DNA of 64,000 bases from Christensenella sp. (GTDB lineage: Bacteria; Bacillota; Clostridia; Christensenellales; UBA3700). Shown piece after piece: positions 59,526-62,555 of the stretch (position 1 is its first letter; every line of letters starts with the position of its first letter). Made by a program: the position numbers and the translations under genes. The DNA lies in NCBI GenBank assembly GCA_022784465.1, contig JALFUR010000004.1:1-64000 (forward strand). Direction: 5' to 3'. The notes beneath the pieces were generated by a model that saw nothing but the letters and a program-made list of their open reading frames with translations, was not told the DNA's origin and made no database searches.

Positions 59526-59576
59526 TTGATTTAGTAAAAAATTGAGTATATAATTAAATCATACAAATTTGATAGG
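59526..59576 (+). promoter_or_regulatory. Promoter plus operator-like block of the rrf2 gene
   Basis: TTGATT-17-TATAAT; TATAATTAAATCATACAAATTTGATAGGAA near-identical to the metY promoter block. Confidence 0.72.
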
Positions 59577-59587
59577 AAAAGTTAATT

Positions 59588-60019
59588 ATGAATATTTCAA
59601 CTAAAGGAAGATATGGTATAAGAATGTTAGTAGATCTTGCACAACATAAAGATGCAGGATTAGTTCAAATTAAAGATTTAGCTCAGCGTCAAGATATTAC
59701 TATTAAATATGCTGAACAAATTATTAGTTTATTAAATAAAAATAGATTTGTAAGAAGTGTACGTGGCGCTCAAGGTGGATACGAAATCATTGGAAATGCA
59801 AAAGATTATACAATATATGATATATTAACCAAAATAGAAGGGGACCTATCTGTCGTAGATTGCGTTAATGATGAAACATACTGTAATAGAACTTCAGCAT
59901 GTGCATCTAGAAATCTTTGGGTAGGTTTAAACAATGTTATTAAAGATTATTTAAGCAATATTACGCTTCAAGATCTAGTTGATCAAACTATAAATACATC
60001 CGATTTATATAGCATCTAA
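59588..60019 (+). CDS. Rrf2 family transcriptional regulator (CymR-like by context)
   Basis: MNISTKGRYGIRMLVDLAQH; VRSVRGAQGGYEI; adjacent to metY-cysK. Confidence 0.93.
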   Translation: MNISTKGRYGIRMLVDLAQHKDAGLVQIKDLAQRQDITIKYAEQIISLLNKNRFVRSVRGAQGGYEIIGNAKDYTIYDILTKIEGDLSVVDCVNDETYCNRTSACASRNLWVGLNNVIKDYLSNITLQDLVDQTINTSDLYSI

Positions 60020-60047: not shown

Positions 60048-60101
60048 TTGACAATATATATATGTATGTCTATAATTAAATCATACCAAAGCGATAGGAA
60101 T
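60048..60101 (+). promoter_or_regulatory. metY-cysK promoter plus operator-like block
   Basis: TTGACA-17-TATAAT (60048-60076); TATAATTAAATCATACCAAAGCGATAGGAA. Confidence 0.82.
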
Positions 60102-60126
60102 AGTATAAAATAGGAGAAGAAAGAAT

Positions 60127-60177
60127 ATGAATATTAAAAATTATACGATTCGATGTTGTTTCCGAATGTGTATGTAG
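60127..60177 (+). CDS. Putative 16-aa Cys/Met-rich leader peptide MNIKNYTIRCCFRMCM
   Basis: ATG AAT ATT AAA AAT TAT ACG ATT CGA TGT TGT TTC CGA ATG TGT ATG TAG; AGGAG 10 nt upstream; located in metY-cysK leader. Confidence 0.7.
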   Translation: MNIKNYTIRCCFRMCM

Positions 60178-60246
60178 GTAATACAAAAATAAATTAATAA
60201 AACAAAATTACACACAAAAAAATAAACACAAAAGGAGAATATAACA

Positions 60247-61539
60247 ATGTCAGAAAGAAAATATAGATTTGAAACATTACAATTACATGTAGGACAAGAA
60301 CAAGCAGACCCAATAACAGACTCAAGAGCTGTTCCAATTTATCAAACAACTTCATATGTATTCCATAACGCTGCACACGCTCAAGCAAGATTTGGACTAG
60401 CAGATCCTGGTAATATTTATGGTAGATTAACAAACTCAACACAAGACGTATTAGAAAAGAGAGTTGCCGCACTTGAAGGTGGTGTTGCTGCACTTGCTGT
60501 AGCATCTGGTGCTGCTGCTATTACATATACTATTCAAGCATTAGCTCAAAAGGGCGATCATATCGTAGCACAAAAAACTATCTATGGTGGTTCATATAAC
60601 TTATTAGCTCATACTTTAAAACAATTCGGAATTGATACATCATTTGTAAACATTCATGATTTAGATGAAGTTGAAGCTGCAATTAAGGACAATACAAAAG
60701 CTCTTTATATTGAAACACTTGGCAATCCAAACTCAGATATTCCAGATATTGATGCTGTAGCTAATTTAGCTCATAAATATAATATTCCATTAGTAATAGA
60801 TAACACATTTGGTACACCATATTTAATTAGACCAATTGAACATGGCGCAGACATAGTTGTGCATTCAGCAACAAAATTCTTGGGTGGACATGGAACTACT
60901 TTAGGTGGAGTTATTGTTGATTCAGGAAAATTTGATTGGAAGAAAAATGCAGATAAGTATGCACCAATAGCAAAAGCAAATCCATCTTATCATGGTATTT
61001 CATTTGCAGACGCTGTAGGCCCAGCTGCTTTTGTAACATATATAAGAGCAATCTTATTAAGAGATGAAGGTGCTACTCTATCTCCATTCAATGCCTTCTT
61101 GTTATTACAAGGAGTTGAAACTCTATCACTAAGATTAGATAGACATGTAGAAAACACAAAGAAAGTTGTTGAATATTTGTCTAAACATCCTCTTGTTGAA
61201 AAAGTAAATCACCCTTCATTGAAAGATCATCCAGACCATGATTTATATCAAAAATATTTCCCAAATGGAGGAGCTTCAATATTTACCTTTAACATTAAGG
61301 GTGGACAAGAAGAAAGCTTTAAGTTTATAGATAATCTAAAAATCTTTTCATTACTTGCAAACGTTGCAGATGTTAAATCTTTGGTTATTCATCCAGCAAC
61401 AACAACTCACTCACAATTGTCTGAGGAAGAATTGAGAGATCAAGATATTTATCCAAACACAATAAGATTGTCTATTGGTACAGAACATATAGACGATATC
61501 ATTGAAGACTTAGAAAACGGTTTTAATGCAATTAAATAA
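60247..61539 (+). CDS. metY: O-acetylhomoserine aminocarboxypropyltransferase / sulfhydrylase
   Basis: [50 protein letters not shown]. Confidence 0.95.
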
Positions 61540-61558: not shown

Positions 61559-62485
61559 ATGGCTATATATAAATCAATTACAGAATTAGTTGGTAAAACA
61601 CCACTATTAGAAATAGTAAACTATGAAAAGAAAAATAATTTAAAGGCAAAAATATTTGCAAAACTTGAGTACTTTAACCCAGCTGGATCTGTTAAAGACA
61701 GAATCGCAAAAGCAATTATTGAAGATGCTGAGGAAAAGGGTTTATTAAAAGAAGGTGCAACAATCATTGAACCTACTTCAGGAAATACCGGTATTGGTCT
61801 TTCAGCTATTGCAACAGCAAAAGGTTATAGAATGATTGTGACAATGCCTGATACCATGAGTGTTGAAAGAAGAAACTTAATCAAAGCATATGGCGCAGAA
61901 TTAGTTTTAACAGAAGGCGCAAAGGGTATGAAGGGAGCTATTGCAAGAGCAGAAGAATTAAATCAAGAAATTCCTGGTAGTATTATTGCTGGACAATTCG
62001 TAAATCCTGCAAATCCACAAGCTCACTTTAAAACAACAGGACCAGAAATCTGGGAAGATCTAGATGGTAATGTAGATGTATTTATCGCTGGTGTTGGAAC
62101 TGGTGGTACAGTATCTGGTGTAGGTAAATACCTAAAGAGTAAAAATCCTAATGTTAAAATCATTGCAGTTGAACCAGCAGCTTCTCCAGTATTATCTAAA
62201 GGTGTTGCAGGTCCACACAAGATTCAAGGTATTGGCGCAGGATTCGTACCAAAGACTCTAGATACAAGCATTTATGATGAAGTATTTGCTGTTGAAAATG
62301 ACGATGCATTTAAAACAGGAAAAGAATTTGCAAAAATTGAAGGTGTTCTAGTCGGTATATCTTCAGGGGCTGCTTTATATGCTGCATCACAAATTGCTCA
62401 AAGAAAAGAAAATGAAGGCAAAAACATCGTAGTTTTGTTACCTGATACAGGTGATAGATACTTATCAACACCTCTATTTCAATAA
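61559..62485 (+). CDS. cysK: Cysteine synthase A; start 61559
   Basis: [39 protein letters not shown]. Confidence 0.97.
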
Positions 62486-62506
62486 TAATTTTTAGAATAA
62501 ATCTTC

Positions 62507-62555
62507 CTCGGCCCATTGCGATGCAACATCAAAAATAGACCGAGGTTTTTTTTAT
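62507..62555 (+). terminator. Terminator after cysK
   Basis: CCTCGG…CCGAGG + poly-T. Confidence 0.72.

Follow-up and report, generated by a model that had tools for sequence, protein, structure and literature searches.

A short leader ORF before metY-cysK in Christensenella sp. and a family of related leaders with a CGA-AUG codon pair in Clostridia

Comparison with related genomes indicates that the 16-codon ORF upstream of metY and cysK in Christensenella sp. is real and is a member of a previously unlisted leader-peptide family across gut Clostridia. The element common to all forms is the codon pair CGA-AUG, not the RCCxRMCM tail of the window peptide; the window here means the whole stretch of 64,000 nucleotides that was analysed. 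We give about even weight to the reading that the leader is a cis-acting control of metY, and sometimes of metQ-like genes, that would respond to the supply of sulfur amino acids, a slowed ribosome on the leader probably switching homocysteine/cysteine synthesis on or off.

The leader ORF and its surroundings

Table 1. Features of the leader-metY-cysK region, numbered from the first nucleotide of the window
Feature	Position	Strand	Evidence
Rrf2-family transcriptional regulator gene (CymR/IscR-like)	59588..60019	+	NCBIfam TIGR00738, 129.9 bits, over cut-off
Promoter TTGACA-17-TATAAT of the leader-metY-cysK unit, sigma-70-type	60048..60076	+	12/12 match
30-bp repeat TATAATTAAATCATACCAAAGCGATAGGAA, candidate operator	60071..60100	+	near-copy at 59549-59578, Rrf2-gene promoter
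Shine-Dalgarno (SD) AGGAG of the leader ORF	60112..60116	+	sequence; 10-nt spacing to ATG
Leader ORF MNIKNYTIRCCFRMCM, then stop	60127..60177	+	sequence; in-frame CGA-AUG; in-genome pattern search
Predicted RBS-sequestering stem, 5' arm (codons Arg9-Cys10-Cys11-Phe12)	60149..60163	+	MFE -15.4 kcal/mol, z -2.2
CGA-AUG (Arg13-Met14), core common to the leader family	60163..60168	+	enrichment, frame and codon invariance in relatives
Predicted stem, 3' arm: metY SD GGA 60234-60236, start region AACAAUGUC 60243-60251, GAA 60253-60255	60234..60255	+	same fold; family-wide leader:own-RBS complementarity
metY, O-acetylhomoserine sulfhydrylase	60247..61539	+	TIGR01326, 624 bits
cysK, cysteine synthase A	61559..62485	+	TIGR01139, 446 bits

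The ORF was found exactly as the initial annotation described it, with its own AGGAG, from an ATG at 60127-60129 to a TAG at 60175-60177. The count of three Cys and two non-initiator Met among the last seven residues agrees, Cys taking 3 of the 16 codons, and the ORF indeed lies between a strong promoter and the sulfur genes, the arrangement being that of a Cys leader: a translatable, short, SD-led ORF with a promoter on one side and a sulfur operon on the other. The absence of an intrinsic terminator between this promoter and metY was likewise borne out, and the window thus lacks the terminator of a transcription attenuator; an intrinsic terminator-like hairpin (CCTCGG...CCGAGG, then T8) is located at 62506-62553, at the end of the metY-cysK unit. 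Rfam cis-regulatory families, including riboswitches and the T-box, gave no match in the window or in 40 relatives.

In pattern searches, on which all genome-wide statements here are based, an SD-ATG-...-CGAATG arrangement in frame occurs a single time in the 1.59-Mb genome, at the window leader, which is therefore more than chance; the pattern has two other matches, both within a repeated gene start and neither in frame.

The neighbouring Rrf2-family gene encodes a product that scores below cut-off with the CymR and IscR equivalog models. Two copies of the 30-bp repeat, differing by about four mismatches, are present in the window, one in the Rrf2-gene promoter and one in the metY promoter; since the sequence is common to both promoters, it is likely an Rrf2 operator, and the Rrf2-family regulator is the likely controller of the leader-metY-cysK promoter. 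Promoters in relatives share CCTATTGACATAGTAGG, an imperfect palindrome across the -35 box, which is likewise a likely candidate for an Rrf2-family operator. Transcriptional control is probably a second regulatory layer on metY. That it is the sole control, the ORF having arisen by chance, is improbable in our assessment: the adjoining Rrf2 gene and repeated operator-like site would fit this explanation, as would the window peptide, atypical among family members, and the roughly half of metY relatives that have no recognisable leader, but the in-frame CGA-AUG, the SD and the Cys codons stand at the expected place before metY, uniquely in the genome, and same-genus relatives carry leaders of the form described below as type A.

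A leader family with a common codon pair

The metY relatives were gathered from genome contigs plus 60 related and 393 class-level genomes, upstream stretches being taken for most of the strongest class-level metY matches irrespective of leader presence. In the resulting 235 distinct metY upstream regions, mostly from Clostridia, CGAATG was the second most enriched hexamer (133 observed versus 20.7 expected) after TTGACA, the -35 box, and the enrichment was strand-specific, its reverse complement being observed 7 times versus 11.8 expected. An SD-led ATG ORF runs in the CGA ATG frame at 109 of 138 CGAATG sites (-330 to -40), versus 2 and 6 in the other frames, and Cys makes up 23% of the residues after Arg-Met in frame versus 1.6% out of frame. 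In 65 of the 109 leaders, the Arg codon is number 16 or 17. The invariance of CGAATG at the nucleotide level would also suit an RNA-level site, a target of a protein or small RNA, which the ORF overlaps incidentally; we regard this as quite improbable in view of the single frame shared with SD-led ORFs, the in-frame Cys enrichment and the synonymous variation around CGAATG in type A.

Leaders of this kind are present in at least 25 families of class Clostridia, and roughly half of the relatives sampled have one ahead of metY. Among the 80 leader-bearing loci that show a promoter-like site, the nearest one is always more than 110 nt from metY, whereas close to half of the leader-less metY genes have such a site nearer than that; therefore, the division into metY genes with and without a leader is real. 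The window leader shares with the family the in-frame CGA-ATG, the SD-led ORF and the downstream metY.

The initial annotation had drawn attention to the Cys-rich tail and proposed a leader peptide of sulfur genes that senses charged tRNA-Cys/Met. The leader itself is supported by the Cys enrichment near its end and by a position conserved across Clostridia; the emphasis on the tail is partly wrong, as the RCCxRMCM tail, when compared, was unconserved even within the genus, two species having ..LRHNFR[FC]GRMC..CCA or similar. Concerning the sensing, Cys codons are in excess in the window and strongly enriched family-wide, yet 18 of the 109 leaders are Cys-less, so the family is not defined by Cys codons alone, nor can these be its only sensor throughout. 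Given these leaders and the 24 of the 109 that stop directly after Arg-Met, a simple count of charged tRNA-Cys/Met does not suffice as a mechanism. The stop codon of those 24 is UGA in 21 cases, versus mostly TAA in long window ORFs.

Three groups of leaders were distinguished. Type A (55 distinct) follows ..L[LV]R.N[FYW]R[FNC]G-R-M, then a stop or a Cys-rich tail; type B (22) follows M(M)CCRM..SRA..MAGA; the other leaders (30, including that of the window) mostly have CGA-AUG with nearby Cys and do not fit the A or B pattern as scored. In type A, the residues R-8, N-6, aromatic -5, R-4 and G-2 are near-invariant while their codons vary synonymously. When close pairs were compared across the ten codons that lead up to CGA, 620 single differences were synonymous and 202 non-synonymous, where random change would be 22% synonymous; therefore, the type A peptide itself is under selection. 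The ratio is indicative, the pairs being non-independent. Pfam contains no family matching the type A/B peptides, and NCBIfam has none for the window peptide, yielding only one weak, spurious match. Literature searches on leader peptides in connection with sulfur, O-acetylhomoserine, CGA or Clostridia turned up no account of the family, which is weak evidence of absence as they covered open-licence papers only.

The association with metY was also seen genome-wide. In 151 genomes of the order, the NFRxG-CGAATG pattern had 11 matches, of which 9 immediately precede metY and the remaining 2 fall within other coding sequences; in 399 phylum genomes, mostly of other classes, it had 5, with no excess over the reversed control. 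Two further class-level type A leaders precede MetQ/NlpA-family lipoprotein genes (G507, G266), and the leader is therefore not restricted to metY. In these two loci, the leaders FIKLLRQNFRFGRMCRCCI (L180, G507) and FTRLVRENFRFGRM (L181, G266), each followed by a stop, lie directly upstream of the MetQ/NlpA-family genes. The conservation of the type A peptide over about 17 residues might be taken as a sign that the ORF product is a small trans-acting protein with, for instance, MetY as its target. We hold this to be very unlikely: every real match inspected sits in cis, a short distance from metY or a metQ-like gene, the C-terminal length and composition of the leaders vary freely, and the N-termini of type B are not conserved.

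Selecting on CGAATG makes CGA invariant by construction; therefore, leaders were also sought by peptide alone. In that search, the codon before Met was CGA in 65 of 71 type A and in all 19 type B leaders. The six type A exceptions (CGC, GTC, CTC) all come from spirochaete-labelled MAGs, so CGA is not indispensable everywhere. These loci, titled Treponema/Spirochaetales (L009, L011, L015, L017, L054, L080), carry a type A leader with metY and may reflect either transfer or mislabelled MAGs. At the other invariant Arg (-4), all six Arg codons are used. When any MGN codon was admitted genome-wide, CGA was found in all metY- or metQ-linked matches (linkage being assigned from positions) versus about 2 of 39 unlinked ones.

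Only 7 of the 412 Arg codons in long window ORFs are CGA, which makes it a rare codon there. The tRNA-Arg genes found in the window genome have the anticodons ACG, CCG, CCT and TCT, with no TCG, and among these only tRNA-Arg(ACG) should read CGA. In a Salmonella leader assay, CGA was slower than CGU/CGC though the same tRNAs read them (PMC4046918). In E. coli, tRNA-Arg1(ICG) carrying s2C32 cannot wobble to CGA (PMC5372741), and CGA could accordingly gauge tRNA thiolation: with ample sulfur, TtcA-made s2C32 would block its reading. A TtcA-like gene and a C32 in tRNA-Arg(ACG) are present in the window genome, as this explanation would have it, but TtcA-like genes (E<=1e-20) occur in 25 of 33 leader-bearing versus 27 of 32 leader-less metY genomes, eight leader-bearing genomes that are 92-100% complete have none, and every match is below the curated TtcA cut-off. 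Such a gauge is highly improbable, and thiolation as the general cause of CGA was rejected, as TtcA-like genes do not track the leader. The TtcA-like protein of the window genome (L281:1432-2163, contig C8) scores 199.5 bits to the TtcA model, below cut-off, and is of a kind common in Clostridia.

Predicted output structures and mode of action

In the window, the Cys codons of the leader are predicted to pair with the SD and start of metY, which suggests translational attenuation. In a longer window transcript, the fold had a z of only -0.8, so the stem is plausible and unproven. Across type A and other leaders, the duplex of leader and own RBS was stronger than that of control segments (mean z about -0.9 versus -0.05, P=1.4e-7; dinucleotide shuffles with upstream controls), but a strong duplex (z<-2) is seen in only 20-27% of them, which falls short of showing that translational attenuation is universal. 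An earlier permutation test of these duplexes was dropped, being confounded by genome G+C. The overall leader-to-metY folding in type A is unremarkable (median z -1.0). Rho was considered, and the type A spacers with C slightly above G, 27 of 47, are too weak to argue from.

Type B has a different geometry. In most members, CTCCCGGGCA starts at a distance of 11 nt from the C of CGA, on its 3' side, and roughly 10 nt of it could base-pair with the 5' arm of an intrinsic terminator some 105 nt downstream; terminators were scored in 16 of 22 type B versus 4 of 55 type A leaders, and the window and most type A and other leaders have none. Complete transcription attenuators, with the CTCCCGGGCA arm and terminator, were observed at about -320 to -60 of metY in L031, L036, L040, L136 and other Lachnospiraceae-type loci, and Rfam leader families had no match in the loci of this type scanned (L016, L019, L031, L040, L073). 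The initial annotation saw no obvious intrinsic terminator before metY, as holds for the window; a candidate output structure nevertheless exists there in the predicted pairing, and many Lachnospiraceae-type relatives have a full terminator/antiterminator.

Based on these data, the Cys codons and the rare CGA-AUG pair would both slow ribosomes that have initiated at the leader SD. Under a shortage of Cys-tRNA, a ribosome detained on the 5' arm would keep the stem open and metY-cysK would be translated; with ample cysteine, it would depart and the stem would close over the SD and start codon of metY. Relatives appear to have this leader core wired to a transcription terminator (type B) or joined to the conserved NFRxG peptide, which resembles an arrest peptide (type A). 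With standard ribosome footprint sizes, a type B ribosome at the Cys codons before CGA would leave the CTCCCGGGCA arm free, and one at CGA-AUG would begin to cover it; a shift of one or two codons, from Cys to CGA, could be the switch.

Nascent-chain arrest of the TnaC kind would place the emphasis on the peptide: ..R.NFRFG-R-M would halt translation at CGA-AUG or at the UGA/UGY that comes next, the cue being a sulfur metabolite or its lack, and the Cys codons would only tune the response. The near-invariant type A residues, kept despite synonymous codon variation, and the 24 leaders that end right at RM, mostly with UGA, are consistent with arrest. We nevertheless find it rather unlikely, as NFRxG is missing from type B and from the window peptide, which lacks this C-terminal amino-acid conservation, while CGA-AUG is kept, and a fixed CGA codon is unexplained by any peptide-only model.

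Returning to the codon pair, we tentatively propose a new leader class in which a codon brake (CGA then AUG, read by inosine wobble only), the NFRxG arrest motif and Cys codons may have evolved to different outputs, namely RBS sequestration, a terminator and another in most type A, upstream of metY and metQ-like genes across 25 or more clostridial families.

Relation to known leaders and significance

Cys leaders are known in Actinobacteria, as in the cys operons of Mycobacterium (PMC1262725), and translational attenuation is reported in M. smegmatis (Canestrari et al. 2020, as cited in PMC13236596). The clostridial family resembles them in the short ORF, the Cys codons near the stop, the position before sulfur genes and the usual absence of terminators. 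It differs in being SD-led and clostridial, in preceding metY or metQ-like genes, in the invariant CGA-AUG, in the NFRxG peptide of type A, in its Cys-less leaders and in the terminator version of type B. The latter is similar to uORFC-8-2, the cysS leader of Rhodobacterales with tandem Cys codons (PMC8632094), in combining tandem Cys codons in a uORF with a downstream terminator, although the gene, phylum and sequence differ and CGA-AUG is undescribed there. Type B also shares leader codons, a fixed-distance antiterminator arm and an intrinsic terminator with trp/his-type transcription attenuators; unlike these, its switch arm lies 11 nt after CGA, an arrangement not found in the window. To our knowledge, such a switch arm has no earlier description. 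Concerning TnaC and SecM, the likeness lies in conserved C-terminal residues beside a putative stall site and in the preference for UGA where leaders end with Met, whereas the sequence is unrelated, the clostridial leader is constrained at the level of the Arg codon and stalling is only putative here. On this comparison, the leader is best described as a previously unlisted variant of leader-peptide attenuation, one in which a codon is constrained for no evident reason.

If this is true, the leader would be a widespread control of sulfur amino acid synthesis in gut Clostridia, a setting in which regulation by T-boxes, riboswitches and CymR had been expected. The type A leader is a candidate new arrest peptide, and the invariant synonymous codon offers a clean test of whether what a leader peptide conserves is a slow codon rather than an amino acid.
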